Below are positions 6,803-36,756 of a DNA stretch of 51,527 nt, piece by piece. The translations under genes and the position numbers were made by a program. Source of the DNA: Dokdonella immobilis (GTDB taxonomy: Bacteria; Pseudomonadota; Gammaproteobacteria; Xanthomonadales; Rhodanobacteraceae); contig NZ_FOVF01000034.1 of NCBI RefSeq assembly GCF_900115085.1, forward strand, positions 1-51,527, read 5' to 3'. How positions within the stretch are numbered: the first letter of the stretch is position 1; each line of letters begins with the position of its first letter. The notes below the pieces were generated by a model. It was not told where the DNA came from and ran no database searches. It saw only the letters and a list, made by a program, of their open reading frames with translations.

Positions 6803-7375
6803 CTACTCGAAGCCGTGGCGAAAGATCAGATCGATACGATAGTCGAAGGGACAGAGCACCGATCCGAAATTGGCCGAGGACAGTCCTCCCGTCTCGCGAG
6901 CGCGGATTTCATAGGCGTATTGGTTACCGAAGGCCGGATCCCCGCCCGCGCCGGGGTACCCGCAGGCAACCTTGAATCCCTCGGCGTGCATGCCAGGGGG
7001 TACGGTCATCGAGGTCTGAAAGAAACCGGCGTAGTAGGCGCGAATGCGTCCATCGATCATGATGGTCATGCGCTCGATGTACTGCGGCGCAGTTGCCGAG
7101 ACTTGCAGGGATCCCCAGTTCACATAACACGCGTCCACTTCGTCCATCGGGCCGTAGCATTGCGCCGTCGGGCTGTCGATGAAGGAAATGGTGGGAACGC
7201 CCGGCGGCTCGCTGCGCTCGCGATGGGGTTCATCCTGGAATCCGGTGTCCCAGAGGCCGGCCGCCGGCGCCACCACCGGCATCAAGCCGCCGCAGGCAAC
7301 GCTCAGCAAGAGCAGCGGCAACGTTCCGCCGAACAGCCTGATCCGCCCGAACCTGATCCCTTCATCTGCTTGCAT
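6803..7375 (-). CDS. Secreted protein, tandem paralogue 1, with C-terminal GFE motif
   Basis: The 190-residue product has a hydrophobic export segment (LPLLLLSVACGG) and a single domain of about 120 residues shared with the next upstream gene. Shared landmarks include VPTISFI-SPTA-CY, CY-NW, YAGFFQTSM, GFKVACG, GAGGDP-FGN-YAY and SAN-G-V-CP. Paired cysteines suggest disulfides outside the cytosol. The protein ends RIDLIFRHGFE, a C-terminal signature also found on four other exported proteins in this window and absent from its paralogue. It begins ten bases after the paralogue's stop, so the two form an operon. I do not recognise the family. Confidence 0.75.
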   Translation of the reverse strand: MQADEGIRFGRIRLFGGTLPLLLLSVACGGLMPVVAPAAGLWDTGFQDEPHRERSEPPGVPTISFIDSPTAQCYGPMDEVDACYVNWGSLQVSATAPQYIERMTIMIDGRIRAYYAGFFQTSMTVPPGMHAEGFKVACGYPGAGGDPAFGNQYAYEIRARETGGLSSANFGSVLCPFDYRIDLIFRHGFE

Positions 7376-7384
7376 CGGGATGCC

Positions 7385-7936
7385 TCACGGCGTGTAGGCG
7401 GGGCAGAACACTGTTCCGTAATTCGCCGACGTCAACGCAGCGCTGTCCTTGGCTCGGATCGTATAGGCGTAGGCGTTGCCGAATTCGGGATCGCCGCCTG
7501 CGCCGAGACCTCCACAGGCAACCTTGAATCCGCGATCATGCATGTTGAACGGGACATACATGGAAGTCTGGAAAAATCCAGAATAGCGGGCGACCTTGCC
7601 GAACACGTTGATCTCGGCCTGCATCGAGACCATGTAATTCGGATCCGCGCTGACGGCGAGGTAATACCAATTGATGTAGCAGGTGTCCTGCGTGTGGTCG
7701 GGCTGGTAGCAGGTGGCCGTTGGCGATTCGATGAAAGATATTGTCGGGACATCCGGCACCGCTGCGCCGGCCGGCGCCTTGATCTCCCTGGTATTGCCGC
7801 CCTCGATTTCACTCTTGAGGGTTTGCTGGGCGGGCGCCTGGGGAGGCCCCTCCGCGCGTGCGATTCCGATTGAAAGAAACATCGGCGCTGCCGTGGCGGC
7901 AGTCAGGAGCAGGGTACGGATAGAAAGAGCGGCCAT
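7385..7936 (-). CDS. Secreted protein, tandem paralogue 2, lacking the GFE motif
   Basis: The 183-residue product begins MAALSIRTLLLTAATAAPMF and has a signal peptide likely cleaved after GIARA. After a linker of about 45 residues it carries the same domain as its downstream neighbour: VPTISFIESPTATCY, TCYINW, YSGFFQTSM, GFKVACGGLGAGGDP and FGNAYAY. It stops at CPAYTP, where paralogue 1 continues into the GFE ending. The start at 7936 follows a GGGGGA stretch. It is the first gene of the two-gene unit, and its promoter should lie in 7937-8280. The function is unknown. Confidence 0.75.
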   Translation of the reverse strand: MAALSIRTLLLTAATAAPMFLSIGIARAEGPPQAPAQQTLKSEIEGGNTREIKAPAGAAVPDVPTISFIESPTATCYQPDHTQDTCYINWYYLAVSADPNYMVSMQAEINVFGKVARYSGFFQTSMYVPFNMHDRGFKVACGGLGAGGDPEFGNAYAYTIRAKDSAALTSANYGTVFCPAYTP

Positions 7937-8280
7937 GCGATTTCCCCCAGGTCGGTACACACGCCTTGGACGGCACCAATACTCGCAAGGGGGCCCGCTT
8001 GCAAGCGGTATAGCGTAGCTGCGACGTTTTGGCCGCCTGGCCAGTATTTCGGGTGGGGTTCGATGGTATGGCCGGGTACCAGCGGGAAGGGGCCAGCCGC
8101 GAACCGTCCATGGCGGACTTCCGCACCCGGCTCGGGTTGGTCGGGCTGGAGGGACAGCACGGGTCATGGATGTTGTGCTTCTTTGCGAATCTCCCGCCCA
8201 TCGCCTGCGGGGCTTGCAGCCGGATGGCGGCGCCAATGGGCCCTTGATATCCACATGCCTTAGGGATTGGCTCCCGGCAT
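7937..8280. other. 344-base stretch, upstream region of the paralogue pair
   Basis: No gene could be supported. The stretch should carry the minus-strand promoter for the paralogue operon, but I could not pick a convincing -35/-10 pair. It borders the degraded plus-strand frame beginning around 8281. Confidence 0.4.
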
Positions 8281-8700
8281 GTGGACACGGTTGACGAGCT
8301 GCTCTCCAGGGGGAGCTCGATCTCATTTCCGATGCCACCTTGCGGGCAGGTCTGGCCGCTTGCCGCGATACGGTGGCCGTCATCCGTGGCGACATCGAGA
8401 TGATGGTGGATGATAGCTCCCAGCACATGCTGGCGGTCGTTCGCCACGTCCGCGTTGATCCCACCAGCGCCGTTCATGATGGCAGGACCGAGGCCGACAT
8501 GATGAATGCCGACCTGTTCGAGGTCCTGGAAAATCCCGCCGACTTGCACGCCGATCCGGAAGTCCTTGGCGCGCTCAGTGCCATTCGACGCAGCCAGGTC
8601 CACGCGCTGGGTAATCAGATCACCGTGCGCGAAGAGGTCGTTCGCCTGCGCGATCTGCTGAAGACGGTGCAAAGAACGACTTTCCCTGATCGGACTGATC
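8281..8700 (+). pseudogene. Degraded helical-protein gene with a frameshift
   Basis: A GTG at 8281 opens VDTVDELLS and then shifts near 8305 into a frame reading LQGELDLISDATLRAG. That frame continues through DIEMMVDDSSQ, ADLFEVLENPADLHADP and TVREEVVRLRDLLKTV. Composition and third-position GC look coding on this strand, while the opposite strand looks like an antisense shadow. No stop follows in a sensible place: the frame runs on into the signal peptide of the next gene. With a broken start and a missing end, a decayed gene is the best reading. I do not recognise the family, and it may be spurious. Confidence 0.35.
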
Positions 8701-8817
8701 CAAGGGCTCCGGGTCATGGGGGAGTTTTCGCGGGTACCGATCCTCGGGCATGCGTTGCAAAAGACAGTGATCAAGTATGCTCAGGCGGGCGACACCTACG
8801 TTCCCAGGGGAAACAAC

Positions 8818-10482
8818 ATGATCCATGTTCCAATGCGCCGTCTTCTTGCCACGTCCATCGTTGTTGCGTTCGGCGCTTCAAGTTCATTGCACGCACAGGT
8901 CTTCTATCAGAATTTCGATATCTCGGATCCGATGAATCCCAGACCCGGGTGCAATACCGGGGACTTCCCCGGTGGTGCGGGTACCTACCCGTTTCCGGTG
9001 GGCTGGGTCAAACGCAACGTCGACAATCGCGTCCCGGATGCTTCGGTCGCCTATGTCAATGAAGCCTGGGAAGTTCGCGAGGACTTCAACTTCGATGTCA
9101 CCGAGTGCGCGGCCTTCAGTACTTCGTGGTACTCGCCAGCCGGTGCGGCGAACGACTGGATGTGGACACCCCTGATTTCCGTTCCGGCCGGGTCTGCCAC
9201 GTTGTCGTGGCGAGCCGTAGCCTACGATCCGGCCTACCCGGATGGCTATGAAGTCCGTGTTATGCAGGCAGCGAATGGCCCGCCGACCGGCGGCACGGGC
9301 ACCATCGGCAACCAGATCACCAACAGCACGACGTTGTTTTCGGTGGCCGCCGAACAGTCCGCCTGGACGCAGCATGCCGTGGGTCTTTCTGGGTTCGGCG
9401 GACAACAGGTCTATTTCGGATTCCGCAACAACTCGAACGACAAATTCCTGTTGATCATCGACGACGTCAAGGTCGTCGATGCCACGCCCAACTTGTCGGC
9501 GAGCGTGGCGGCAGTCAGCTCGCCCTATCCACGCGTTTCCGAGGGCACTCAGGTCGATGCCCGGCTTGGGGTCAGAGCGCTGAACGTCGGTGGCGCGGAT
9601 CTGACCGATGTCGTCGCGACAGCCACGATCAAGCGCGATGGCGTGGCATTCGGGACGCCGATCATCTCCGACGTCATTGCCTCCTTGCCGATCGGTGCCG
9701 CTCAACCGGTCACGTTTCCGATCGGCCATACCTTCGATGGCAATGGTGTCTGGTCGATCGAATACAGCTTGAGCTCGGCCCAATCGTCCTCGGAAATCAG
9801 TCTGCTCGACAACGTGATCGAGTCGGTTCCAACGGCTGTCGGTGGCAACGAATTCGCACGGCACGAGCTGCCGCCGACTTCGGTGCTGGGCATTGGCGCC
9901 GGCAGTGGCGGGGAAATCGGCGTGCAGTTCGATTTGCAGACGACGTCGACATTCGAAGGCATTCGTTTTGCCATGAATGCCGTCGAGCCCGCGGTTCCGC
10001 CCGATCCGGAATGGGCCGGACGCAACCTGGTCGCCAACCTGAGGGAATTCGACACGTCGACCGGCAAGCCGGGCAGCCTGCTGGCCTCGACGACTCCTGT
10101 GCTGAGCACGAACGCTGGTGGCGCTTATGACGCGCCATTTTCCGGAGGAGCCCAGGTTCTGGTGCCGGGGAGATACGTGATCACCGTGTCCGAGCCGATG
10201 AGTGGGCCGGCGATGCCCCTGTTCGTGAGCGCGCAGCGTTACGAGGCAGGTGCTGGATGGATCGACTGGCCAACCAATCCCCTCGGCGGATGGGCGCATC
10301 CCGAGGATTTCGGCAACCAGTATCTAATCACGCCGGACGTTTCGCTGCTCAGCGAATTTTCCCTGTTCAAGGATGGCTTCGAGACGGCCGATTCGCCTGC
10401 GGCAGCGCCGCGCATGGCGGCACCGACGCGGCCAACCCGAAGGGCCGCGCCGACGCAGCTCGTTCCGCGCGTTCCGCGCTGA
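8818..10482 (+). CDS. Secreted choice-of-anchor-J-like protein with internal GFE motif
   Basis: The 554-residue product has a signal peptide (MRRLLATSIVVAFGASSSLH, cut near HAQ). A jelly-roll domain (about 25-220) contains FYQNFDIS, GWVKRNVD, WMWTPLISVPAGSATLSW, YEVRVM and DDVKVVD. This is the pattern of choice-of-anchor J/cleaved-adhesin modules, which bind carbohydrate or mediate adhesion. A CARDB-like region (about 220-320) and a further beta region follow. Near the end it reads LLSEFSLFKDGFE, the GFE-type signature, here followed by about 32 Ala/Pro/Arg-rich residues. The start at 8818 follows AGGGGA. The sulfotransferase gene begins 18 bases after the stop, so the two are probably co-transcribed. 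Confidence 0.8.
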   Translation: MIHVPMRRLLATSIVVAFGASSSLHAQVFYQNFDISDPMNPRPGCNTGDFPGGAGTYPFPVGWVKRNVDNRVPDASVAYVNEAWEVREDFNFDVTECAAFSTSWYSPAGAANDWMWTPLISVPAGSATLSWRAVAYDPAYPDGYEVRVMQAANGPPTGGTGTIGNQITNSTTLFSVAAEQSAWTQHAVGLSGFGGQQVYFGFRNNSNDKFLLIIDDVKVVDATPNLSASVAAVSSPYPRVSEGTQVDARLGVRALNVGGADLTDVVATATIKRDGVAFGTPIISDVIASLPIGAAQPVTFPIGHTFDGNGVWSIEYSLSSAQSSSEISLLDNVIESVPTAVGGNEFARHELPPTSVLGIGAGSGGEIGVQFDLQTTSTFEGIRFAMNAVEPAVPPDPEWAGRNLVANLREFDTSTGKPGSLLASTTPVLSTNAGGAYDAPFSGGAQVLVPGRYVITVSEPMSGPAMPLFVSAQRYEAGAGWIDWPTNPLGGWAHPEDFGNQYLITPDVSLLSEFSLFKDGFETADSPAAAPRMAAPTRPTRRAAPTQLVPRVPR

Positions 10483-10500
10483 CACGGACATCCACGGCGG

Positions 10501-12093
10501 ATGCCGAGCGTCGAGCGCTACCGGAGCCGCCTCGAGCGTCACATGGCCGAGGGGCGGACCGAGCAGGCCCTGGAAGTGCTTGCGTTGTGGCGAGCAGGCC
10601 ATCCAGGCCTGCTCGAGCCGGAATTGGTGCTCGCGCGTATCGAACAGCTCCAGGGTCGCTACTGCCAGGCGCGTGCCCGCGCGCTGAATGCCGTGGCGAC
10701 GCTGGAGTGTCCAGGCGCACTCGCCCTCGATGTCGTCAATTGCCTGCGGGTGTTCATTGCGCACGATGCGCTGGATACATGGATCGCCTCGTTCCCCGCC
10801 CGGGCTGCGGTGCCTGCCGAGGACCAGGCGCGGATCGCGGCCGCGCTCAGTTCGATCGGATTGCATGCCCCGGCCCTCGACTGGGTGGAGGAATCCGTCG
10901 CGAAGTCACCTTCGAGCGGCATCTGTCGGGTCAATCGGGCTTTGATCCGCAGCTACGCTGGTGACTTTGACGGTGCACGCGCCGACCTCGACCAGGTCGT
11001 TGATGGGCCAGAGGATTCGGCTACCGCGCACTGGTTGCTGGCTCGCCTCGACACGCAGGATCCGGAACCTGGGCGTGTCGAACGCCTGCGTCGACGCATC
11101 GCGACGTGCGCGCGCGCGGCGGACAGTGCGCTGCTTCAGTTCGCCTTGTTCCAGGAACTCGACCGTGCCGGCGATGTGGGCGCTGCCTGGCAGGCGTTGA
11201 TGGAAGGCTGTCGTCAGGCCCGCAAGCAAGCGGCGTACGATCCCGTCGCGAGCGAGCGACTCTTTGCCGCGCTCAGGAAACGGTTTCCGTTGGCCCGGTC
11301 GCCCGCGGCGCACGTCAGCCGTGATCCGGTTCCGATCTTCATCGTCGGCATGCACCGATCGGGCACGACACTGCTCGAGCGCATGCTCGCCGCCCATCCG
11401 GGTGTATTCGCCTACGGTGAATCGCAGCGGTTGAGCGGCGCGCTGCGCCAGGCGGCCGATCACGGGTGCCAGCCGCTGCTCGATGAAGTCCTGATCAGTC
11501 GCGCATCGAGCATGGACACGCGGCAGGTTTCGACCTGCTATTTCGCCGAGGGCCGGCGCCGCATCGGCGCCGCGAGTCATGTGACCGACAAGTTGCCCGG
11601 CAACTTCCAGCTGATCGGATTCATCCATGACGCGATGCCGCAGGCACGAGTGATCCACCTTCGCCGTGATCCGATGGATCTTTGCTTTGCCAATCTGCGT
11701 GAACTGTTTTCCGATTCGGTCAGTTACAGCTACACCATCGAGGATCTGGCGCATTTCCACGCGCACTACGTCGAACTGATGCGCCACTGGCAGCGCAGTT
11801 TCCCCGGTTTCGTGCTCGACGTGGATTATGAAGACCTCGTGACCAACCCCGAGCAGGTCAGCCGCAGGGTCTTCGAGTTCTGCGGACTGGACTGGACACC
11901 GGCGGCGCTCGAGCCGTCAGCATCGTCCGATTCACCGGTCAATACCCTCAGTTCGATGCAGGTGCGCCGCCCGATCCATTCGCGCAGTATCGGCCGCTGG
12001 AAGCCCTATGCCAAATGGCTGGGTCCGCTGCAGACGCTGCTGGATTGTCGGTCATCCGGATTCCAGCGGGAGCCTGGACCAGAACCGGGTTGA
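10501..12093 (+). CDS. TPR-repeat sulfotransferase
   Basis: The 530-residue product combines a helical TPR-like N-terminal half (about 1-270) with a PAPS-dependent sulfotransferase domain (about 275-500). The 5'-phosphosulfate loop is GMHRSGTTLLERML (283 on). The 3'-phosphate-binding segment is HLRRDPMDLCFANL (386 on). A conserved DYEDLVTNPE lies further along. This resembles TPR-containing bacterial sulfotransferases and, distantly, tyrosylprotein sulfotransferases. It should transfer sulfate from PAPS to a hydroxyl group on a sugar, peptide or small molecule. No membrane segment is evident. Its place directly behind a secreted adhesin-like gene hints that it may modify that protein or a surface glycan, which is inference. 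The ATG at 10501 follows a weak GGCGG. Confidence 0.85.
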   Translation: MPSVERYRSRLERHMAEGRTEQALEVLALWRAGHPGLLEPELVLARIEQLQGRYCQARARALNAVATLECPGALALDVVNCLRVFIAHDALDTWIASFPARAAVPAEDQARIAAALSSIGLHAPALDWVEESVAKSPSSGICRVNRALIRSYAGDFDGARADLDQVVDGPEDSATAHWLLARLDTQDPEPGRVERLRRRIATCARAADSALLQFALFQELDRAGDVGAAWQALMEGCRQARKQAAYDPVASERLFAALRKRFPLARSPAAHVSRDPVPIFIVGMHRSGTTLLERMLAAHPGVFAYGESQRLSGALRQAADHGCQPLLDEVLISRASSMDTRQVSTCYFAEGRRRIGAASHVTDKLPGNFQLIGFIHDAMPQARVIHLRRDPMDLCFANLRELFSDSVSYSYTIEDLAHFHAHYVELMRHWQRSFPGFVLDVDYEDLVTNPEQVSRRVFEFCGLDWTPAALEPSASSDSPVNTLSSMQVRRPIHSRSIGRWKPYAKWLGPLQTLLDCRSSGFQREPGPEPG

Positions 12094-12148
12094 ACGCTGG
12101 ACGGATCGTCGCCACGTCAGCAAGTCCATTCCTCCCAAGGAGATTGCG

Positions 12149-12820: not shown

Positions 12821-12847
12821 CCGAAGCGCAGCTTGCGGGACCCCAGA

Positions 12848-13942: not shown

Positions 13943-14038
13943 GTGAGTAGCCTGCCTGGAGGGCCCATGATCGATCGGGGCCTGCCTGGCACCTGCATCA
14001 TCCGGGCCATCCGAGCCCGGCAAAACGTGCACTGGTGC

Positions 14039-14576: not shown

Positions 14577-14796
14577 TCAATTCAGCCTGTCCCGAGGTGA
14601 ATGAGCCATCGACCGGCCTGCAGTCCGTGCGTCGGCGCACGCATCCCTCCTTCCGCAGTCGACATGGGCGAGAGACAGGCTCGATCGAGCCCGATGACCG
14701 CCGCGGGTCTCGAGCGGCCTGCCTGGCCCCTATTGCCGCCGGTTTGCGTGTGAACAGCCAGGAACACCGGGTTCCGTTTCTGGCAAGGGTGCAAGC

Positions 14797-19260: not shown

Positions 19261-20961
19261 ATGTCTGCCTTCAATCGTTCGACCTTCAGCGCAGCGGTGG
19301 CACTAGCCCTGTGCATGAACCATGCGTCCGCCCAGCAATTCTCATGGGAGACCGGTGTCAACAACGGGACCATCGCCCCTGGTGGAGACCCGGCTGCGAC
19401 CTTTCGAAGCTACAACCAGCCTGCGATCGACAATGCCGGCTTGATCGTGTTCCGCGCCCGCAGCAGTGCCGGAAGCGGTGCCCAGATCAGCGGTGTCTAC
19501 CAGCGCGACCTGAGCGGTCCGAATCCCGTGGTGAAACTCGTGGCACGCGATGACGTCGTGCCGGATCCGAACAACACATCGTATAACGGCGTACCTTCGT
19601 CGTTCACCGAATTTCCGTCGACGCCGCGAATCGACCAGGATACCGGCCTGGTGGCAACGCGCGGCCAGCACAAGCCGGTGTGGACCTATCTGCTCGGCGC
19701 AACCGAGACGCGCGTCGGCACGTCGGGAATCTATGCCTTTCCGCAAGGTGTGGGCGTGACCGGAGCGAGTCTTCTCGGCAGTGCGCTCGAAGCGGACCAG
19801 GTCACTTTGAGCTTTCCCTGGTACTCGGTGCCGGGCGCGATTCTCGGCACGCGTTTCGATCAATTTCCCGGTTCCCCGGCTGTCACCAATGGTCGTTACA
19901 TCGTATTCAAGGGGAACTACACCGACCCGCTCGACGGCCTGGGTCGTACCGGCGTCTATTTCCGCGATGTCCTGGGCGGGACGCCAACGCCGTATACCGG
20001 GTTGATTGCAGACTCGAACACGCTCGTGCCGAACCAGCCGAAGGGAGGCAGTGTGAAGTTCGGTTCCACTGCGCCACCCAGTGCCGCGAACGGCCTCGTC
20101 TACTTCACCGGCCTCGACATCGAGGAAGCACCGACCCTGGGCGGCATCTATCGTGCGCAGATCCCGGCATCACCACCTCCGCTTGCGCCGCTGGCCTTGC
20201 CGCTGAGCGTGATGGTCGGAATCGGCGACCCGGTCCCCGGCGAACCACCCGGTGCGGTCTTCAATGGACTCGGCGAAGGACTCTCGGTCAGCAGTGACGG
20301 CAATCTCGTTGCATTCTGGGCGCGATGGGGAACCGAAACATTCGAAAAGACCCTGTTGTGTCCGACCGATGGCAACGCCGACCTCATTGCCTTCTGCAAC
20401 GAAACCTATCCCGATGGCCTGGTGGTGAACATTCCGGTCCATCAGGGCATCTTCATCCACGATGCCACCAGCGGCATCACCTCAGCCGTGGCGCGCACCC
20501 AGAATGACGGCGTGGAAGATCTCCTGTTCTGGGTCTTCTCGGGTCGCCCGCCGGGTGTCGGCGGCACCGAGGACACCGACATCGAGCCGGCGCGCTGGCG
20601 TTCTTCGGGCTTTGCGGCCCTGTCCTTCGAAGTGGATCAACCGACCCAGGTGGTCTTCAAGGCGCAGCGCAACGGCCTGGTCGGCCTCTACCTGCGCGAG
20701 AGTTCCGTCCTCGAACTGCCACTGAGGACCGTTGCCGAGGTCGGCACAACGCCGGGAACAGAACTGGATCCACTTGCGCCAGCCGGTTCCCTGATCAGTT
20801 CCGTCGGTGTCGAACGCGAGGGATTCCGCAACGGCCGCCTGGCGATCACCGCGACGATGCTGTACGTCGATCCGATCGATCCGACGATTACCGAGAGTTG
20901 GGGCGGAATCTATATGTCGACAGGCGTGATCGATCTCATCTTCCGCGACGGGTTCGATTGA
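19261..20961 (+). CDS. Secreted beta-repeat protein ending in the GFD motif
   Basis: The 566-residue product has a signal peptide (MSAFNRSTFSAAVALALCMN, cut near ASAQ). The body contains repeated segments in which asparagine-glycine turns precede a hydrophobic strand and an aromatic: DNAGLIVFRAR, NGRYIVFKGNY, ANGLVYFTGLD and SDGNLVAFWAR, each followed by GIY or GVY. This looks like a propeller or beta-solenoid built from units of about 60-100 residues, in the style of uncharacterised choice-of-anchor tandem-repeat proteins. The protein ends GVIDLIFRDGFD, the cleanest copy of the C-terminal signature discussed in the findings. GAGG about a dozen bases before the ATG sets the start. The function is unknown. 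Confidence 0.78.
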   Translation: MSAFNRSTFSAAVALALCMNHASAQQFSWETGVNNGTIAPGGDPAATFRSYNQPAIDNAGLIVFRARSSAGSGAQISGVYQRDLSGPNPVVKLVARDDVVPDPNNTSYNGVPSSFTEFPSTPRIDQDTGLVATRGQHKPVWTYLLGATETRVGTSGIYAFPQGVGVTGASLLGSALEADQVTLSFPWYSVPGAILGTRFDQFPGSPAVTNGRYIVFKGNYTDPLDGLGRTGVYFRDVLGGTPTPYTGLIADSNTLVPNQPKGGSVKFGSTAPPSAANGLVYFTGLDIEEAPTLGGIYRAQIPASPPPLAPLALPLSVMVGIGDPVPGEPPGAVFNGLGEGLSVSSDGNLVAFWARWGTETFEKTLLCPTDGNADLIAFCNETYPDGLVVNIPVHQGIFIHDATSGITSAVARTQNDGVEDLLFWVFSGRPPGVGGTEDTDIEPARWRSSGFAALSFEVDQPTQVVFKAQRNGLVGLYLRESSVLELPLRTVAEVGTTPGTELDPLAPAGSLISSVGVEREGFRNGRLAITATMLYVDPIDPTITESWGGIYMSTGVIDLIFRDGFD

Positions 20962-26415: not shown

Positions 26416-26478
26416 ATCGTGCTCGCGGCATCGCAGTGCAAACTTTTCGATCAAAGGCGCGTGCGGCACACTGCCGGC

Positions 26479-27231: not shown

Positions 27232-27304
27232 AAGTCGGTCGGCCACTTGATTCGGCGCGCGCAAGTCGGCCGTGCGAAATGACTGCCTCACGGTGATTCG
27301 CGGC

Positions 27305-28505: not shown

Positions 28506-31313
28506 TTGAACCGATATCCATTCTTGCGGGGTGGATTCGTCCGCGTGCATGCGGCGATCCTGATCAGTGTCCTGGCCTTCGGCGCACACGCCGACGAGTC
28601 GGCCGGAAATATTGCGGATGCGGCCTACAAGGCGCAATTGCGCGCATCTCCCTATGTCACGGCCGAATCCTGCGCCGTGCTCGACGATCCCAAACAGGCC
28701 AATCTGATGGACGGCCTGCTGTTCTTCCTGGCCAAGGCGTGCGGGCGCCAGGGGGAATTCATCGGACAGGTCGAAAGCGTCGATGCCGGCTTCCTGCCGC
28801 CGTACCTCGAGCCGAATACGGATCTCAATGTAAGCAATCCGGCCGGCGATACCGGCACCACGCGCACCCAGAGCGAAACCTCGATCGAGCGCAATCCGGT
28901 CACCGGCACGCTCTGCGCGGCCTACAACGATTCCTTCCATGGCGTCACCCAGAACGTCGGCTTCTCCGGTTACTCGCGTTCGACCGACGGCGGCAATACC
29001 TGGGTCGACCGTGGCGCGGTGAGCGCCGACGACAGTGGTGACCCGAGCCTGGTCTGGCGCCGACAGGACGGCAAGTTCTATTACGCCGCGTTGCGCAACG
29101 GCGGACTCGCGCTGTTCCGTTCGGATGATGATTGCCAGAGCTTCGTGTTGGTCAGCCAGTTCGCGACCAACAACGACGATAAGGAAATCATGGCGATCGA
29201 CAACGAGCCGACCAGCCCGTTCTACGGCCGCATCTACATTGTCTGGACCGACTTCGGCAGCGGCTCGCGGATCTACAGCATCTTCTCCAGCGACGCCGGT
29301 GCGACCTGGTCGGCCCAGCTCGCAATCAGTCCGTCCGGCGAGAGCAACCAGGGTGCCTGGCCGACCATCGCCCCGAACGGCGACGTCTATGTCACCTGGC
29401 TGAAGTGGTTGCCGCCGAACGGCTACCCGACCGGCAACATCGAGATTCCGATCTACCGGTCCACCAACGGCGGCGTGAGCTACTCCGTGCTGACCCCAGC
29501 CATGACCAACAAGGTCAATCCGCGCGAAGCCGCTGCGACCAGCAGCTGCGGGCGCCCGGCGATCAAGGGCAACGTACGCCTGCTGCCCTCGCCGCAGATC
29601 GTATTCCGCAACGGCTACCTGCATACGGTCTACGCCTACGATCCGGACGGCGTGAACACCGGCGACGTCATCGACGTGTTCTATCGTCGCTACAACCCGG
29701 CCACCTCGACTTGGGATGCGGAAGTCCGCATCAATGACGATGCGACCACGACCGATCAGTACCAGCCGACCATTTCGGTAGGTTCTGCCGGGCAGGTCAC
29801 GGTGGGTTACTACAGCCGCCAGCTCGATCCGAACAATCTCCAGATCGACTATTACTCGCGCACGTCCTTCAACAATGGCGCGAGCTGGTCGCAGCCGAGC
29901 GTGCGCCTGTCCGACGCCTCCAGCGCGATCGTGCTCGATAGCTCGCTGGCGACCTGCTACCACGGCGACTACGACCAGCAGTTGCAGGACGACAATGGAC
30001 GCGCCCACTACCTGTGGTCGGATGATCGCGGCAGCACGCCCGACGTGTACACCGATCGGACCCTGGTCGGCACCAACTACCTGCTCGTACCGGTAACCAG
30101 CAGCGTCGCCGTATGTTCGCCCGCGAACGCCGACTACACGCTCAACGTCAACCAGTTCCTCGGCTTCAGCGAGCCGGTGACCTTGTCGGCATCGGGCAAC
30201 CCGGCCAACTCGACGGTCACCTTCGGCACCAATCCGGTGGCACCGGGGGGTTCGAGCTCGGTGACCATCACAACGGCGGGCGTTGCTGCCGGAAGCTCGG
30301 TGATCGACATTTCCGGTCTCTCCAGTCCCGGCGCGGTCGTTCAGACCACCGCGCTTGGCCTCAGCGTCTCGACTGCCGCGCCGGTTGCGCCGGTACTCAA
30401 TACACCGGCGAACAACGCGACCGTCGTTCCGGTCCGCCCGACCTTCGCCTGGGCCGCGGCGCCGCAGGGTGTCAACTACGTGCTCGAAGTCGACAACGAG
30501 CCGTCGTTTGCCCCGCCGCTGACCTACACCGCGACGGTCACGGGCACCAGCCATGTACCGAACTCGGATCTTCCTTCCAATACGACGCTTTACTGGCGCG
30601 TACGTTCGGACAACGTCTGTGGCACCGGGCCGGATGCAGCAGCCTTCACCTTCACGACGGTACCGCTGCCGGGCGATTGCCCGATCGGCGCCGTGGCCAA
30701 CAACGTCTATTCGACGGATTTCGAGGGCGACAATTCGGCCTGGACGCTTGGGGCGGGCAGCGTCGGTTCGAGCAACTGGGCGATTTCGACGGCACGTCCG
30801 CATGGCGGCACCAATGCGTTCCTGGCCCAGGATCTGGCGGCCGCCTCCGACCAGCGCCTGATCTCGCCGGCGATCGCCTTGCCGACCGGACAGGATCCGC
30901 TGGCGCTTATCTTCTGGAACGACCAGACCCTCGAGAAGAACGGAACGACGGGTTGCTATGACGGCGCGATCCTGGAGATTTCGACGGACGGTGGCGCCAA
31001 CTTCACCCAGGTGCCGGGCGTTTCGGCCCTGACCGACCCGTACGACGGTCCGATCAGCGGATCGTTCCAGAATCCGCTCGCGGGCCTGAGCGCGTGGTGT
31101 GGCGATCCGCAGGCTTACCTGCGCTCCGTGATCGACCTGACTGCGTTCGCAGGACAGACCGTGCAGTTCCGATTCCGGGTCGGCAGCGACAGTTCGGTCG
31201 GGCGCACGCCGCATGGCTGGTACATCGACGACGTCGCCGTGCAGTCATGCCAGTCCTCCGTTTCCGATGTCATCTTCGCCGACGGTTTCGATCCGGTCGT
31301 CGTCGTTCCGTAA
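28506..31313 (+). CDS. Secreted sialidase-fold/BNR-repeat protein ending in the GFD motif
   Basis: The product of about 935 residues has a signal peptide (VHAAILISVLAFGAHA). A six-bladed-propeller region (about 100-540) carries Asp-box-like turns: SRSTDGGNTWVD, SSDAGATWS, RSTNGGVSYS and NNGASWSQ. Asp boxes mark sialidase/BNR folds, but I see no clear arginine triad, so catalysis is unproven. An Ig-like or FN3-like part follows (about 640-730, TPANNATVVPVRPTFAWAA), then a MAM-like jelly roll ending GWYIDDVAV. The C terminus is DVIFADGFDPVVVVP, the GFD signature plus six residues. I chose the TTG at 28506 because AGGGG sits eight bases upstream; an in-frame ATG at 28479 lacks a ribosome site. 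It probably acts outside the cell or on its surface. Confidence 0.82.
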   Translation: MNRYPFLRGGFVRVHAAILISVLAFGAHADESAGNIADAAYKAQLRASPYVTAESCAVLDDPKQANLMDGLLFFLAKACGRQGEFIGQVESVDAGFLPPYLEPNTDLNVSNPAGDTGTTRTQSETSIERNPVTGTLCAAYNDSFHGVTQNVGFSGYSRSTDGGNTWVDRGAVSADDSGDPSLVWRRQDGKFYYAALRNGGLALFRSDDDCQSFVLVSQFATNNDDKEIMAIDNEPTSPFYGRIYIVWTDFGSGSRIYSIFSSDAGATWSAQLAISPSGESNQGAWPTIAPNGDVYVTWLKWLPPNGYPTGNIEIPIYRSTNGGVSYSVLTPAMTNKVNPREAAATSSCGRPAIKGNVRLLPSPQIVFRNGYLHTVYAYDPDGVNTGDVIDVFYRRYNPATSTWDAEVRINDDATTTDQYQPTISVGSAGQVTVGYYSRQLDPNNLQIDYYSRTSFNNGASWSQPSVRLSDASSAIVLDSSLATCYHGDYDQQLQDDNGRAHYLWSDDRGSTPDVYTDRTLVGTNYLLVPVTSSVAVCSPANADYTLNVNQFLGFSEPVTLSASGNPANSTVTFGTNPVAPGGSSSVTITTAGVAAGSSVIDISGLSSPGAVVQTTALGLSVSTAAPVAPVLNTPANNATVVPVRPTFAWAAAPQGVNYVLEVDNEPSFAPPLTYTATVTGTSHVPNSDLPSNTTLYWRVRSDNVCGTGPDAAAFTFTTVPLPGDCPIGAVANNVYSTDFEGDNSAWTLGAGSVGSSNWAISTARPHGGTNAFLAQDLAAASDQRLISPAIALPTGQDPLALIFWNDQTLEKNGTTGCYDGAILEISTDGGANFTQVPGVSALTDPYDGPISGSFQNPLAGLSAWCGDPQAYLRSVIDLTAFAGQTVQFRFRVGSDSSVGRTPHGWYIDDVAVQSCQSSVSDVIFADGFDPVVVVP

Positions 31314-31321
31314 GGCCAACT

Positions 31322-31355
31322 GGCCCGGGGCAGGGTGCGAACCCTGTCCCGGGCC
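31322..31355. terminator. Strong 15-bp hairpin with a GCGA tetraloop between convergent genes
   Basis: GGCCCGGGGCAGGGT pairs with ACCCTGTCCCGGGCC (one G-U) around GCGA, a GNRA-type loop. It begins eight bases after the sialidase-fold gene's stop. TGCTTT follows on the plus strand. It probably ends transcription from the left and may work in both directions. Confidence 0.65.
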
Positions 31356-31466
31356 TGCTTTCGGGTTGCCCGGTTGGGGGTGGAACTTGAGCACACCCAC
31401 CTGTCGGCAGGTCGTCAGGTAGCCGCGATCAGGCGCCCGCGATGGGGCAGGCGCATGCCGATGGTT

Positions 31467-32375
31467 TCAAGTGTCCGCAATGAATCGCGCCAGTACGCGC
31501 GCCAGTTCCTCGCCGACATCTTCCTGCAGAAAGTGGCCACCTCCGGCCAAGGTCCGGTGGGCCTGCTTGCGGGCGCCCGGAATCAGCTTCTGCAACACGG
31601 CGTCCGCACCCCGCGTGATCGGATCTTGGTCGCTGAATGCGGTCAGGAACGGTTTTTCCCATTGCATGAGCGACTTCCAGGCTTGCCGGTTCGGTTCGGC
31701 AGCCGGGTCATCCGGCGTGGTCGGTACCAGCAGAGGGAACGCGCGCGCACCCGCCTTGAAGGATTCGTCGGGAAATGGCGCGTCGTAGGCGGCGATCTCG
31801 CTTTCCGTGAGACGCTTGGCGCAGCCGCGCGAAACGATTTGACCGACCGGAAAGACCGGTGTGCTGCGCGCATATTCGCGCCATTCGCGGAAGGCCGTGC
31901 CCGGATCGTGGTCGCCCGTCGGAAGAAAGGTGTTGGCGGCCAGCACGCGGGCAAACCGACCGCCATGCTCGGCGACCAGACGCAGTCCGATCAGGCCGCC
32001 CCAGTCCTGGCAGCACAACGTGATGCCCCGCAGATCGACCGCTTCGAGGAAGGCCGACATCCAGTCGACGTGGCCCTGGTAGCTGTAGTCCGCGATCGAT
32101 GCCGGCTTGTCCGAACGGCCGAAACCGATCAGATCCGGGGCGACGACGCGGTGTCCGGCATCGAGCAGCACGGGGATCATCTTCCGGTACAGATACGACC
32201 AGGAGGGCTCGCCATGCAGGAGCAGGACCGGCGCAGCAGCGCGCGGGCCTTCGTCGAGATAGTGCAGGCGTAACGGCTGCAGGCTGCCCCTGTCGCCCAA
32301 CTCGACATAGTGGGGTGCGAAATCAAAACCGGGTAGCGTGTCGAATCGATCCTCGGGCGTGCGCAAAACCTGCAT
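31467..32375 (-). CDS. Haloalkane dehalogenase, subfamily I
   Basis: The 302-residue alpha/beta-hydrolase shows the features of DhlA-type haloalkane dehalogenases: oxyanion segment HGEPSWSYLYRKM with Glu56, GFGRSDKP, and nucleophile elbow CCQDWGG with Asp124 and halide-binding Trp125. Trp165 in AFREW sits in the cap domain, the acid Asp251 is in SDQDP and the base His281 is in GGGHFLQED. Residues 56, 124 and 125 carry the same numbers as in DhlA. The enzyme hydrolyses carbon-halogen bonds of haloalkanes to alcohol and halide; natural substrates of most such chromosomal enzymes are unknown. The start at 32375 gives the usual length of about 300. An SDR gene lies upstream on the same strand, 166 bases away. 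Confidence 0.9.
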   Translation of the reverse strand: MQVLRTPEDRFDTLPGFDFAPHYVELGDRGSLQPLRLHYLDEGPRAAAPVLLLHGEPSWSYLYRKMIPVLLDAGHRVVAPDLIGFGRSDKPASIADYSYQGHVDWMSAFLEAVDLRGITLCCQDWGGLIGLRLVAEHGGRFARVLAANTFLPTGDHDPGTAFREWREYARSTPVFPVGQIVSRGCAKRLTESEIAAYDAPFPDESFKAGARAFPLLVPTTPDDPAAEPNRQAWKSLMQWEKPFLTAFSDQDPITRGADAVLQKLIPGARKQAHRTLAGGGHFLQEDVGEELARVLARFIADT

Positions 32376-32541
32376 TGCGATGTTCCTTCGTGAACGTGGG
32401 AGCGACGGTAGCAGACGCATGGCAACCGGTCAGGATTCGAGCACGCCTGTTGCGGGACCGACGGCCGCGGTCGGAAATTGTCCCATCCCGAGCCACCAGT
32501 GCTTACACGATCCTCGCACCGTGTCGACCGCGCAGATCGGG

Positions 32542-33240
32542 CTAGAACACGACCGGCTGGCTGAGTGGATGGACCAGCAGTTCATCGATTCGAAGGTGCG
32601 GCTCGGCGCCCAGCACGTGCAGCACCGAACGGGCGACGTCGAGCGGCCGCAGGTCGTTCCGGCGTTCCACGCGGCCCGGGATATTGCCGTTGAAGAAGGT
32701 GTCGGTAAGGCCCGGCCTGATCTCGGTCACGCGCATCCCGTAGTCCTGGCCTTCGAAGGCCAGGGCCTGGGTCAGGGCGCGCTGTGCATACTTGCTGGCC
32801 GAATAGAGCCCGCCGCCTGCAAACGTGCGGTTGCTGACATCGCTGGTGACGTTGACCATCTGGCTGTGCTTGCCGGTTTCGTGACGTTTGCGGAAGTGCG
32901 GCACGAAATGCCGGCTGGTCAGGATCAGGCCGAGGACATTGGTGTCCATGACGCGCCGATACTCCTCGACCGTCACGTCTTCCATCGCCTTGAACACGCC
33001 GATGCCGGCATTGTTGACGAGAGTGTCCACGTCCGCCGCGACGGCGATGCGGGCGAATTCGGCGACGCTCGACTCATCGATGACGTCCAGCGCTGCGAAC
33101 TGCACGCCATCGATCGGAGGATCGGGCGGGCGCCGCGAGCCGGCGATGACGCGCGCGCCGTTTGCGGCAAGCAATCCGGCAATGGCAATTCCGATGCCGC
33201 GGCTGGCGCCGGTAACGGCTACGACACGATCCTTCAACAT
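32542..33240 (-). CDS. Short-chain dehydrogenase/reductase
   Basis: The 232-residue product starts [20 protein letters not shown], with the TGxxxGIG cofactor motif at 10-17. It continues with [17 protein letters not shown] (NNAG), [20 protein letters not shown] (catalytic Ser and Tyr) and [12 protein letters not shown]. The adenine-pocket Asp is visible in [10 protein letters not shown] basic SRR after the second strand favours NADP. It is a classical cytosolic SDR; the substrate is unknown. The neighbouring dehalogenase gene suggests, weakly, that it could oxidise an alcohol product, but the gap between the two genes is large enough for separate promoters. Confidence 0.88.
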
Positions 33241-33485
33241 TCAGCTTGTCCGATCAAGGTCAGTCCGGCAGGAACCTGCATGGCGGCAATCCCGTTAGAT
33301 GGCCAGCAACGAAGGCAGATGCTAGTGCATACGCGGAAGAGCGGATACCTGCGCTGAGGCGCCGGCCTCCCATGCGCGTCGGCCTGCGGCCGGGTCGACG
33401 CGATCGCCTGCCGAATCCGCGTCGAGCACGAGACGAGTTTGCTGGTGCGTGCCTGCACGCGCGTGCCTCCTCGAAGCCGGGCCGA

Positions 33486-35558
33486 TCATCGTGACGCCGG
33501 TCCGGCAATCATGAGGTCCATGCTCAGTGAGGTCAGGGTGACGGTCGCCAGTGCCCCGTTGGCCGAGACCGCGATGCTCGGGCCTGCGCCATCGGGAACA
33601 TGTTCGCTGGCAACGGCTTGCGGCTTGCCATCGGGAAGTCTCATCGACCACAGCAGGTTCTTGTCGCGATAGGTGAGGACGCTGCCGTTCAGGGCGAAGG
33701 CCTCGGGCATGGAATCGTCGGAAAGTACCAGCGCGTCGACGGTTTGGGGTTCGGCGAGAGGTGCGAACCTGAGCTCGCCGGAACCCGGGGTCCGCCACGC
33801 AAGCCATTCGTTCGAGGCGCGGTAGGCAGCGACCGGACCCAGTCCCAGGTTCTCGGCAGTAGCCTGGCCTGCGCGCAGTTGCATCAACGTACTCTGCGCG
33901 GTGCCATGGCCGACCAGATAGAGCAGGCGATCGGGGAGCTCGATGCCCTGGAACGCCCCCGGCTCGACTTCGCTCATGACTGAGAGCACGTCGCCATCGA
34001 GCTGATATCGGTACAAGCGGGTCTGCCGATTTTCGTAGGCCGTGAGGACCAGCGAGTTGTCGCGTGCCGACCAGGTCGGTCTGACCCAGCGCAATGAGGG
34101 ATCGAGTGCCAGTTGCCGGGTCTTGCCAGTGAGCGCGTCGTGGACGAGGACCGATTCGGCGCCGTTGCGGTTGCTGCCCAGGGCAATCAGGCGCCCGTCG
34201 GCGGAAAACTCGGGTTGGGCTTCGTAACGCAGTGAGCGCGCGATGGCGGTCCATGTTCCGCCGATCGCGTCGCGCAGCCAGATGTCGGCGTCGTAGCGGG
34301 CCTCCGACCAGACCGCGGCACCATTCGCGGCGATGTCGATGGATCGCGCGCCGCGGCCACCGATCAGTTCCGGCTGGCCACCCGGGCGTAACCGGTGCAA
34401 TGCGCGATAGAGGATCAGGTCACCGGCAATCCAGAGGTTGCGGCTGTCCGGTTCGAAAGCATGGCCGTAGACCGGTTCCGGACGCTTCAACAGCGCCACC
34501 GGCGGCGCCATCCGTGGCCATGGGGCGCGCCATAGCTGCCGGTCGTCGCCGTTGACACTCGCGTAGACGATTTCCGTGCCATCGGTCGAGAGCCGTGGAT
34601 CGACGTGAGCCCCTTCGTGCAGCAGGGGCATCGTCAGGCGCCGTAGTTCGCCGCTGCGCCGGTCGAGTTGGATCAGTCCCGGTGCATGATTCGCGTCGAC
34701 TGGTTTGCCGGTAAGGATCAACGCGAGGCCGCCATCGGCCCACTCGATGCCGCCGCTTGCCGAATCCGCGCATTCACCGACGCGCACGTGATGACCGTCG
34801 ACCACATCCACGCTCCACACTTCGCAGCCTGATTCGCCGTGGCGCGTCAGCGCGATTTCGCGACCATCGGGGGATGGTGCGGGGTGGCGCAGTGCCTTTG
34901 CATCCTGCCAGAGGACGCGCTCGGCCCGATTGCCCGGGTCGACCATGACCAGCTCGCTGGCTTCGCTGCCTGGCGCCGAACGGATATAGACCACGCGTCC
35001 CAGGACGTCGAATCGTGCGTCGTATTCGAGGCGGGGGTCGGCAGCCAGCGGTTGGGCCGAGAGGAGATCGACGGCGAGTTCGGCCCGATGCACGGACCCA
35101 GCCTCGGGATCGACGATATGCCGCCAGGTGAGCGCCAGCAGCGCCATGGCGGCGAGCGCCGACAAGGAAAGGCGCAAACCCCGAATGCGTGCGCGCGATG
35201 GCAGGGAGGTGGCGGGCCCGGCCGCGTCGGCACGGCCGGTTGGATCGTTCCGGGCTGTCTCAGCGATCCATCGATAGCCTCCCTTTGACAGGGTTTCGAT
35301 GAATCGCGGCTCGCGGGCGTCGTCGCCAAGGATCGCGCGAAGTTCGGCGATGGCGCGGGAGAGAACCTCATCGTTGACTTCGCGTCGGGTCCAGACCTGC
35401 TCGATCAGGCCTTCGCGGGTGAGTACCGTTCCGGGTTCGTCGAGGAACCGGCGCAGCAGTCGATCCAGCAGGGGCTTCAGGCGGACTTCGCGCCCGGGCT
35501 GGACCAGGAGGCGTCGCCCGGGCGTGTAGCGCCAATGCAGGAAGGTGTAGTCAGCCAT
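33486..35558 (-). CDS. CadC-like transmembrane regulator with TolB-type beta-propeller
   Basis: The 690-residue product joins three parts. An OmpR-type winged helix (about 1-100: VRLKPLLDRLLRRFLDEPG, TREGLIEQVWTRREVNDEVL, FIETLSKGGYRWIAE) is followed by one transmembrane helix (about 126-145, LRLSLSALAAMALLALTW) and a long periplasmic beta-propeller (about 160-690, TolB/WD40-like strands such as SPDGREIALTR, STDGTEIVYAS and SADGRLIALGS). CadC-family proteins bind DNA from the membrane while sensing a periplasmic signal. In-frame ATGs at 35579 and 35567 are alternative starts. The nearest divergent gene encodes a secreted propeller protein with a start 275 bases away, a possible target. Confidence 0.85.
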   Translation of the reverse strand: MADYTFLHWRYTPGRRLLVQPGREVRLKPLLDRLLRRFLDEPGTVLTREGLIEQVWTRREVNDEVLSRAIAELRAILGDDAREPRFIETLSKGGYRWIAETARNDPTGRADAAGPATSLPSRARIRGLRLSLSALAAMALLALTWRHIVDPEAGSVHRAELAVDLLSAQPLAADPRLEYDARFDVLGRVVYIRSAPGSEASELVMVDPGNRAERVLWQDAKALRHPAPSPDGREIALTRHGESGCEVWSVDVVDGHHVRVGECADSASGGIEWADGGLALILTGKPVDANHAPGLIQLDRRSGELRRLTMPLLHEGAHVDPRLSTDGTEIVYASVNGDDRQLWRAPWPRMAPPVALLKRPEPVYGHAFEPDSRNLWIAGDLILYRALHRLRPGGQPELIGGRGARSIDIAANGAAVWSEARYDADIWLRDAIGGTWTAIARSLRYEAQPEFSADGRLIALGSNRNGAESVLVHDALTGKTRQLALDPSLRWVRPTWSARDNSLVLTAYENRQTRLYRYQLDGDVLSVMSEVEPGAFQGIELPDRLLYLVGHGTAQSTLMQLRAGQATAENLGLGPVAAYRASNEWLAWRTPGSGELRFAPLAEPQTVDALVLSDDSMPEAFALNGSVLTYRDKNLLWSMRLPDGKPQAVASEHVPDGAGPSIAVSANGALATVTLTSLSMDLMIAGPASR

Positions 35559-35832
35559 CGGATCCATCGGTCTGCCCATTCCGGAATGCTAGCAAGTCCC
35601 CGGCGCCTTGCCGCGGCCTGGATCTCCGATTCGGTAGACGCCTGCAAGGACGCACATGTCCCGGCTGCCCGTCACATCCGTTGACTGCGCGACCTTGCGA
35701 GGCTGGCGGATGAGGCGCAGGACTCGGAGGATTCTGCAAAGGAGGAAAAACGGAGGTCTTCGGAACGTTTTGCGAAGGACGTCGGGGGCCCTTGCTTCCA
35801 TGCTGCGACCTCCCGAACCGCGGAGTCCAGCC

Positions 35833-36756
35833 ATGCCAACCCGAATCGCCATTGCAGCCCTGATCCTGATTTCGATCAGTACCGCGGCATGCGCGCAGCC
35901 GTGCAGCCATCACCTCCTGGTCAGCGGATATTTCTCCAACAATGTCGCCATCTACGACGCCTGCAACGGCACCTACCTGCGCCAGCTCGAGCAAGCCGGC
36001 CGGATCCAGGGGGCGCAGGCGGTGCGGTGGAACCCGATCGACGACCTGATCTACGTCGTCAGTGAGGGCAACGACCAGATCCAGCGCTACCGCCGCAACA
36101 GCAGCTACGAGTTCGTCGACGTGTTCGCGCAACTGGCCAGCAATTTCGATCCGACCGGGATCGATTTTGGTCTCGACGACGAGGTCTACGTGGCCAGCTA
36201 TGGCCTGAGCCAGGTGGTCGAACTGGACCCGGTCAGTGGCCTGCAGACGTCCGTGCTGCTGCCGTCGAACAGCGGCCTGCAGGGCGCTGACAACGGCCTG
36301 ATGGCCAGCGTCATCGGGCTTGTCTATGTGCCGGGCTACGACTCGAACAGCGTGGCCCGGGTCGACCCGGAAAGTGGCCAGATCCAGGCGTCGTTCGTAC
36401 CTCCCGGCACGGCCGGACTCCTGGAAACGAGAGGGATCGTCGACGAAGGCGCAACGATCCTGGTCGGCGGCGAGGGCAGTGGCGCGATCTACCGCTTCAA
36501 TGCCATGACGGGCGCGTTCGTCGCGACGCTGGTCAGCGGGCTCAGCCGGCCGACCGGAATGGCGCTCGGCGTCGACGGTTCGTTGCTCGTGTTGACGGGA
36601 AATCGCGTGCGCCGTTACGACCGCAGCACGGGCGCCGATCTCGGTGTACTCGCAAATGGCGTCACTGGTGGCATCTCTGGTGGCACCTTCGTGGCCTTGG
36701 TGCCAAATCCGGATTCCGATCTGATCTACCGGAACGGTTTCGATCCGGCCGACTGA
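35833..36756 (+). CDS. Secreted NHL-like propeller protein ending in the GFD motif
   Basis: The 307-residue product has a signal peptide (MPTRIAIAALILISISTAACA). A six-bladed propeller of NHL/SMP-30 type follows, with strands such as HHLLVSGYFSNNVAIYDACN, DDLIYVVSEGNDQIQRYRR and DDEVYVASYGLSQVVELDP. Similar segments continue through DGSLLVLTGNRVRRYDR. The ending is DSDLIYRNGFDPAD, a Tyr variant of the GFD signature with three extra residues. A Cys pair near the N terminus (QPCSHH and YDACNG) may form a disulfide. GGAG about nine bases before the ATG sets the start. It diverges from the CadC-like regulator gene. The ligand or enzymatic role is unknown. Confidence 0.8.
   Translation: MPTRIAIAALILISISTAACAQPCSHHLLVSGYFSNNVAIYDACNGTYLRQLEQAGRIQGAQAVRWNPIDDLIYVVSEGNDQIQRYRRNSSYEFVDVFAQLASNFDPTGIDFGLDDEVYVASYGLSQVVELDPVSGLQTSVLLPSNSGLQGADNGLMASVIGLVYVPGYDSNSVARVDPESGQIQASFVPPGTAGLLETRGIVDEGATILVGGEGSGAIYRFNAMTGAFVATLVSGLSRPTGMALGVDGSLLVLTGNRVRRYDRSTGADLGVLANGVTGGISGGTFVALVPNPDSDLIYRNGFDPAD

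Follow-up and report, generated by a model that had tools for sequence, protein, structure and literature searches.

A short GF(D/E) signature on exported proteins of Dokdonella immobilis and its relatives: a candidate sorting tag that co-occurs with a second type II secretion system

Why should exported proteins of different folds end in the same few residues? The question is raised by a contig of Dokdonella immobilis (NZ_FOVF01000034.1), analysed here as a window of 51,527 nucleotides. An earlier reading, made from the letters alone (the sequence-only reading), had noticed a short signature built around Gly-Phe-Asp/Glu at or near the C terminus of five proteins with signal peptides, and had proposed a sorting, secretion or processing signal, perhaps read by a type II secretion system (T2SS). 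We find that the signature is a tag of about nine residues, placed mostly at protein ends and spread over many unrelated exported proteins, that it comes in lineage-specific dialects, and that it is co-distributed with one particular T2SS, here called T2SS-B. In our judgement the signature is probably a short linear sorting tag by which proteins that Sec has brought into the periplasm are marked out for T2SS-B. Genomes, families, genera and loci are referred to by working numbers (G, f, g and L), G000 being the genome to which the window belongs.

A nine-residue tag on unrelated exported proteins

All five tails quoted in the sequence-only reading are present in the translations as given, with the correction that the gene at 6803-7375 lies on the minus strand (Table 1). 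The motif D-x-I-F-x-[DN]-G-F-[DE], or a near match to it, stands at or near the C terminus of each of the five proteins. The tail of the 8818-10482 protein is the weaker match (FSLFKDGFE, then 32 residues). None of the listed NCBIfam or Pfam matches in the five proteins covers the tag, one M36 match stopping at its second residue. The window also offers a natural control. The 6803-7375 gene is adjacent to a second minus-strand gene, at 7385-7936, whose product shares 52% identity with it over 151 aligned positions. This paralogue ends ...VFCPAYTP, four residues past a CP common to both proteins; its tagged neighbour continues ...VLCPFDYRIDLIFRHGFE and so extends into FDYRIDLIFRHGFE. The tag of the latter is an add-on.

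The same signature recurs throughout the genome (4.64 Mb in 78 contigs), where ATHTTYNNNRAYGGNTTYGA, a strict DNA pattern for I-F-x-[DN]-G-F-[DE], has 44 matches and its reversed counterpart none. Chance, which had been called very unlikely for the five window proteins, is thereby ruled out as the origin of the tag. Among 368 genes predicted in 36 stretches of the genome (the window and 35 stretches around pattern matches), 49 are tagged, that is, carry the tag no more than 45 residues from the C terminus. Their consensus is D (38) or E (5), any residue, I (44) or L (5), F (47) or Y (2), any residue, D (31) or N (15), G (49), F (49) and D (25) or E (24), the filter having demanded G-F-[DE]; the conserved stretch is about nine residues long. 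The protein ends exactly at the tag in 11 cases. Once the tail is removed, the 49 proteins form 35 similarity groups (BLAST, E<1e-3), with homologous clusters of 6, 6, 3, 2 and 2 members, so that they do not make up one homologous domain family, in agreement with the unrelatedness claimed at the outset. Nor is the tag a copied DNA repeat: since the 21-mers that encode it are distinct in 47 of the 49 genes, it is conserved as protein, and low-GC genomes encode it with other codons.

The expected enrichment in signal peptides was borne out. By a crude score of our own making, a signal-peptide-like start is found in 44 of the 49 tagged genes versus 114 of 293 other closed genes of this genome, and in 61 of 84 versus 133 of 347 at named loci, some of them cut by locus ends. 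For stretches of eight genomes the same crude score gives 116 of 131 versus 432 of 1078, and the tagged proteins thus have the Sec signal peptide that is the mark of T2SS substrates. These eight genomes also served for a survey of position, covering 1270 predicted genes in stretches chosen around tag matches irrespective of where in a gene the match lay. A looser motif occurs 145 times, in 133 cases no more than 45 residues from the C terminus, in 6 no more than 70 from the N terminus and in 6 elsewhere; its reversed form occurs once. The tag is therefore not strictly C-terminal, as had been assumed. Five of the six N-terminal copies, one of them in a presumably DUF1800-like protein of G279, follow directly behind a signal-peptide-like stretch and would stand at the mature N terminus (G279 L104, L110 and L112; G308 L118; G420 L084). 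Two of the six copies elsewhere are internal to proteins that we take to be Rhs-like (G000 L017:2477-9697, minus strand; G420 L080:6022-10803, plus strand), roughly 330-510 residues before the C terminus, and at least one looks like chance (an epimerase-like protein, G420 L089). Here and below, DUF1800-, Rhs-, ECF-, kinase- and IPTL-like, as well as 'xcs-type', are labels that we gave by eye. Two proteins of G308 bear tandem double tags at the C terminus (L116:7428-9725 and L119:15743-17029). In G277 (L099:8965-10365), two adjacent open reading frames with near-identical ends, both ...LIFLDGFEN, look like a recent duplication.

Table 1. Tags, tag-bearing proteins and an untagged paralogue in the window
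Feature	Position	Strand	Remarks
Tagged exported protein, 190 aa	6803..7375	-	no family match
Tag DLIFRHGFE	6806..6832	-	extreme C terminus of the 6803-7375 protein; translation
Untagged paralogue of the 6803-7375 protein	7385..7936	-	gene prediction and alignment
Tagged exported protein with choice-of-anchor J domain	8818..10482	+	NF038128, E 1.1e-15, over cut-off
Tag-like FSLFKDGFE	10357..10383	+	32 residues before the stop of 8818-10482; translation
Tagged exported protein with weak NxxGxxAF choice-of-anchor repeat	19261..20961	+	match below cut-off
Tag DLIFRDGFD	20932..20958	+	extreme C terminus of the 19261-20961 protein; translation
Tagged exported protein with BNR-like repeats and M36-type C-terminal / choice-of-anchor J-like domain	28506..31313	+	all matches below cut-offs
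Tag DVIFADGFD	31266..31292	+	6 residues before the stop of 28506-31313; translation
Tagged exported protein with weak ScyF/ScyE-like (propeller-type) match	35833..36756	+	matches below cut-offs
Tag DLIYRNGFD	36718..36744	+	3 residues before the stop of 35833-36756; translation

Co-distribution with a second type II secretion system

The tag is distributed in patches. Outside G000, the genomes of a class-wide sample (276 in all) have 0-3 strict matches each. Across the 249 genomes of the order the counts range from 0 to 80, with at least one strict match in 104 genomes and none in 145; a search framed for Xanthomonadales proteomes as a whole was thus too broad. Family f1 contains six genomes with 16-64 matches and 52 with 0-1, and family f2 two genomes with 18 and 27 matches and 58 with 0-1. 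Among the matches listed, tagged loci belong mostly to Marinicella, Dokdonella, Tahibacter, Rudaea, Pseudofulvimonas and Lysobacterales, and some tagged metagenome bins are labelled Alcanivoracaceae, Pseudomonadales, Xanthomonas or Bacillota.

Which secretion genes follow this pattern? GspD itself does not separate the genomes, being over cut-off in 77 of the 79 searched, of which the strict pattern classes 38 as tag-positive and 41 as tag-negative. Two kinds of GspD can be told apart, a longer one and GspD-B, which share 22-31% identity (18 genomes); the gene order around the longer one, read in G000, G311 and G333, is xps-like. The xps-type system occurs in tagged and untagged genomes alike and was rejected as an explanation of the tag. 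T2SS-B, to which GspD-B belongs, has the gene order rho-trxA-rhlB-gspC-gspD-gspE-gspF-ftsE-ftsX, exact in G433 and G330 and variably broken up elsewhere, with gspL at a separate place. Matches over cut-off were obtained for T2SSC, TIGR02533 (GspE), TIGR02120 (GspF) and also secretin; TIGR02517 (GspD) and TIGR01709 (GspL) were identified too, and GspC-specific NCBIfam models match the T2SS-B GspC below their cut-offs. By these profile matches, then, T2SS-B has the GspC, GspD, GspE, GspF and GspL of a T2SS, the pseudopilins lying outside the search. All seven GspC proteins scanned match T2SSC and, more weakly, a PDZ domain, the PDZ match being over its curated cut-off in four of the seven, not including the GspC of G000; neither match is found in the XpsN-like proteins of the xps-type system (2 of 2 scanned).

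The protein search found T2SS-B in 36 of the 38 tag-positive genomes, the exceptions being G320 and G393. In the order as a whole GspD-B had matches in 123 of 249 genomes, from which T2SS-B was assigned by hand: 104 genomes were counted, a few short contig-end matches being kept, and 19 weaker GspD rows (G488 and 18 of f2; 37-46% identity, several half-length only) were set aside. Taking at least six tags as the threshold, 62 genomes have both tag and T2SS-B, 6 the tag only, 42 T2SS-B only and 139 neither (Fisher p = 2e-23, relatedness ignored), so that a correlation of motif count with secretion genes, suggested earlier as a check, does exist for T2SS-B. The same four counts are 6/0/1/51 within f1, 2/0/0/58 within f2 and 2/1/4/26 within f164 (p = 0.08). 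GspL was found in all 21 T2SS-B-positive genomes tested, G515 included, and in none of 18 T2SS-B-negative ones; two xcs-type genomes set aside from this comparison, G488 and G333, each have GspL.

The locus was also read in four genomes that lack the system. In untagged G311 (f1), G147 (f2) and G291 (f164) the order is rho-trxA-rhlB-ftsE-ftsX, with nothing between rhlB and ftsE, and in G325 (f1) rho-trxA-rhlB is present with no gsp gene within the stretch. When the xps-type secretins are arranged in a tree (15 of 20 rows, with weak forks in places), the T2SS-B-negative genomes of f1 stand among T2SS-B-positive ones, and the absences in f2 and f164 lie on other branches. G292 is nearly complete and belongs to a family otherwise rich in tags; it has neither a GspD match nor a GF tag (by the variant pattern described below, 5 matches versus 2 for the control). 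These results support the idea that unrelated exported proteins share a signal for sorting or secretion, and the co-distribution across genomes, the GspL comparison and the loss of the locus agree with the guess that type II secretion is involved; the link to T2SS-B is correlational.

Tagged genes occur in 4 of 20 stretches (about 9-20 kb) around T2SS-B (G308 L146, G329 L147, G380 L136, G288 L142) and in none of 20 around other GspD copies; G000 L134, also near T2SS-B, is tagged only by a loosened motif (...IFANGFQ). Further T2SSs in G333, G488 and G515, with an operon of their own in G333 and G488, are not accompanied by tags.

Homologue tails, dialects and neighbouring genes

The 49 tagged proteins of G000 match 38 NCBIfam families, one protein sometimes matching several and several matches covering partial domains. 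Among the best 25 of these 38 are choice-of-anchor Q (5 proteins), rhombosortase-dependent M36 (5), myxosortase-dependent M36 (3), choice-of-anchor J (3) and the NxxGxxAF repeat (2), with single matches to choice-of-anchor B, ExeM/NucH nuclease, the MXAN_5453 MYXO-CTERM-anchored family and others. Families tagged here thus bear one or another anchor tail elsewhere. For choice-of-anchor Q we read the C termini at 30 loci. In the T2SS-B-positive f2 genomes G361 and G495 all four ends are tagged (LVFRDGFEG, DVVFGDGFE, AVFANGFE, QIFLDGFE). In genus g245, 13 of 14 readable ends carry the tag or a dialect of it, among them IFNDRFEQP, VFQDRFEQP, IFRDRFEEP, IFGSRFD and IFSDRFDSAR, and one each of IFADRLESQP, IFRDRFGP and VFADGFEHIQ; two further loci run off. 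In the T2SS-B-negative genomes G325, G371, G307 and G291 the tag is found in none of six ends (one further locus runs off), and two of the six, one each in G325 and G291, have an IPTL-like, hydrophobic-plus-basic end. The remaining three loci are one of G336, which ends IYKDDFDH, and two of T2SS-B-positive f164 genomes that run off. In these loci the choice-of-anchor Q domain is tagged where T2SS-B exists and otherwise ended where it is absent; the tag of the same domain therefore goes with the presence of T2SS-B. IPTL-like ends, seen on choice-of-anchor Q homologues at L221 (G325), L227 (G291) and L211 (G374), appear to be an alternative anchor within the same order. An IPTL-like C terminus also lies near T2SS-B in G387 (L149:8676-9227, minus strand).

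The g245 ends bear on the 42 genomes that have T2SS-B and fewer than six GF tags, 28 of which belong to family f166, mostly to g245. A variant pattern with R or S in place of G and a looser first residue (F-x-x-[RS]-F-[DE]), searched in 67 genomes, has 6-61 matches in 23 of 26 g245/g283 genomes, with 0-1 for controls. In 22 T2SS-B-negative genomes outside these genera it has 0-5 matches, except G321 (7) and G335 (10), and it also matches GF genomes, e.g. G420 (17) and G277 (12). R rather than S stands in the g245 tails read and in the listed matches of G409 (g283). The seeming exception of g245 is thus mostly a matter of dialect, F-x-[DS]-R-F-[ED], and the variant pattern explains 21 of the 42 genomes. 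In f163, the ends LFSNGFE and LFSDGFESP were read at two loci of G280, and the copy read in G290 is not near a stop. A relaxed pattern (15 genomes) hardly discriminates: it rose in G280, G290 and G437 and also reached 10-11 in T2SS-B-negative G311, G291 and G307. The G336 protein at L219 ends DRIYKDDFDH, possibly a third dialect with D for G.

No gene conserved beside the tagged genes was found; judged by eye, the neighbours encode kinases and sigma factors or are housekeeping genes. Twelve of 16 members of a kinase-like family (6 genomes) and 9 of 11 members of a sigma-factor-like family (4 genomes), both named by eye, lie no more than two genes from a tagged gene; examples (L009-L133) are G308 L119, G420 L084/L088, G329 L123/L124 and G000 L026. 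These neighbours may control the tagged secretome.

A possible reader, rival readings and implications

If the tag is indeed read by T2SS-B, a tagged protein would be exported by Sec and would fold in the periplasm, where its exposed tail D-x-I-F-x-[DN]-G-F-[DE] would be bound by T2SS-B, and it would then leave through GspD, to end up on the cell surface or in the medium. Most plausibly, the GspC PDZ domain, which the xps-type T2SS lacks, would take up the tag as an additional strand. PDZ domains bind ligands by beta-augmentation, and N-G and D-G favour tight beta turns. The GspC PDZ is the best candidate reader because it separates T2SS-B from the xps-type system in the genomes scanned and because a GspC PDZ selects a particular substrate elsewhere; since the tag need not reach the carboxylate and is sometimes N-terminal, binding would be of the internal, beta-hairpin type. 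In Vibrio a GspC PDZ domain is required for secretion of one substrate, VesB (PMC12369372). The specific proposal that T2SS-B reads a portable nine-residue linear tag at either substrate end through the GspC PDZ, with GF and RF dialects co-evolving with the reader, is a tentative one, which we hold with appreciably more doubt than the sorting role itself.

Several observations weigh against T2SS-B as the destination of tagged proteins. Genomes of a family are related, and the Fisher values therefore overstate independence; counting the 19 set-aside rows as T2SS-B weakens the association (p = 4e-17). G320, G335, G388, G393, G447 and G448 have at least six tags and no T2SS-B match, and the same holds for G321, G438 and G458 with the variant tag; most tag-only genomes are drafts, 81-96% complete, G335 and G321 being 97% complete. 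Conversely, ten T2SS-B genomes have only 3-5 GF matches, G336 has no match by the GF or the variant pattern, and G352, G397, G426, G446, G359, G465 and G471 have T2SS-B and fewer than six tags of either kind, with no other sign of a tag. G515 likewise combines a T2SS-B-type match with fewer than six tags of either kind; its GspD lies about 133 kb from rhlB and less than 6 kb from its GspL, so the system is probably a different, acquired one. For the 67 genomes searched with the variant pattern, GF and variant tags taken together give only 29 both, 4 tag only, 14 T2SS-B only and 20 neither. One g245 homologue of choice-of-anchor Q has a hydrophobic-plus-basic end in place of the tag. A search for compensating residues in the dialect genus was uninformative: acidic gains are spread all over both GspC and GspD, and therefore nothing can be read from them about compensation. 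As far as the reader is concerned the evidence is correlation only, and other genes could have been co-lost in the same lineages. Finally, the expert view is that T2SS signals are structural and not linear (PMC12369372, PMC7949064).

The main rival is anchoring, with the tag docking proteins, exported by either T2SS or by another route, to a surface receptor that was lost together with T2SS-B. Tagged proteins include families that are surface-anchored in other bacteria, the tag is replaced in two homologues by an end resembling a membrane anchor, and a tag at either protein end is what a docking peptide would show; moreover, Wenzhouxiangella AB-CW3, a presumed tag-bearing relative, is reported to keep its lytic proteases on the outer membrane (PMC7691419). 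Yet anchoring requires a second co-lost factor besides T2SS-B, and no candidate receptor emerged among the recurring neighbours, which by eye are extracytoplasmic function (ECF) sigma factors, kinases and housekeeping genes; we consider it rather unlikely. An occurrence at the C terminus of many unrelated exported proteins per genome, patchy across genomes, would also suit a cleaved signal of the PEP-CTERM or GlyGly-CTERM type, processed by a sortase- or rhomboid-like enzyme. Such processing is nevertheless improbable, given that the tags read show neither a hydrophobic helix nor a basic tail and that copies occur at the mature N terminus and, in two cases, inside Rhs-like proteins. Rhombosortase (TIGR03902) is over its cut-off of 84 bits in 3 of the 79 genomes, all untagged, and was rejected as the reader, being over cut-off in none of the 38 tag-positive genomes; tagged G300, G383 and G420 are near-misses at 80-83 bits.

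That the real reader is another, unrecognised protein and the T2SS-B link an incidental by-product of lineages with many co-losses appears quite improbable to us. Phylogenetic profiles cannot separate co-lost genes, and exceptions exist in both directions, but T2SS-B and the tag are jointly absent in three families, and a T2SS is the type of machine expected for folded Sec substrates. Least credible of all is a structural origin, in which the tag is no signal and represents either the final strand or a lid of each fold, or else a C-terminal domain that the proteins inherited from a common ancestor. Homology does exist among some tagged proteins, as the clusters described above attest; against this stand the 35 similarity groups, an untagged paralogue with the rest of the fold and a tag that tracks the genome, not the family. 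The lid strand recognised by an export machine, as entertained in the sequence-only reading, finds no support: the paralogue manages without the tag, and a low-confidence model of the C-terminal 222 residues of the 28506-31313 protein, built with five homologous fragments, shows an unstructured tail (mean predicted local distance difference test score, pLDDT, 56; residues 204-222 mostly below 50). This model simply does not contradict an exposed tail; a single-sequence model of the 35833-36756 protein was discarded (mean pLDDT 37).

How does the tag compare with known systems? The original remark that it differs from the familiar C-terminal modules holds for the tails read, which have neither a transmembrane helix nor a basic tail. 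GlyGly-CTERM/rhombosortase is a close parallel, since it too is a C-terminal signal on unrelated exported proteins, including ExeM and M36-type ones, tied to type II secretion; however, it has a Gly-rich motif, a hydrophobic region, positive residues and rhomboid-type cleavage, features that the tag lacks. PEP-CTERM/exosortase and MYXO-CTERM/myxosortase share with it a many-to-one sorting logic, choice-of-anchor families and patchy distribution, whereas the tag has no transmembrane segment, Cys or PEP signature and may be N-terminal. The tripartite CTERM layout was not seen in the 49 tagged proteins, 43 having 0-8 residues after the tag and the longer tails printed lacking a hydrophobic helix; no CTERM model appeared by name for the 44 of them outside the window, among the best 25 of 38 and the best 25 of 62 families. 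In type IX secretion a C-terminal region likewise directs Sec-exported proteins across the outer membrane, but there it is a folded immunoglobulin-like domain (PMC11285876) as against nine residues here. The pairs OutC-PelI and EpsC-VesB resemble our proposal in that the GspC PDZ helps to choose some substrates, and differ in relying on loops or folded domains of single substrates (PMC12369372) instead of a linear tag shared by dozens of proteins per genome. Among the best-ranked papers of the PubMed Central (PMC) literature we found no published account of the tag. C-terminal sorting tags are a known kind, but none of the kinds found is a soluble tag of nine residues that has no membrane segment, can stand at either protein end and goes with a T2SS.

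The means by which T2SSs select what they secrete have long been debated, and at present a universal linear signal is held not to exist (PMC12369372, PMC7949064). Because the field holds T2SS signals to be non-linear, the T2SS reading, if proved, would be categorically new. With a short tag on dozens of proteins that gene loss links to one T2SS, substrate choice becomes directly testable. The tag would also make part of the secretome of many environmental bacteria readable from sequence, and laboratory use as a secretion tag is conceivable. Even with another reader, it is a sorting code common to Dokdonella, Tahibacter, Marinicella and their relatives.

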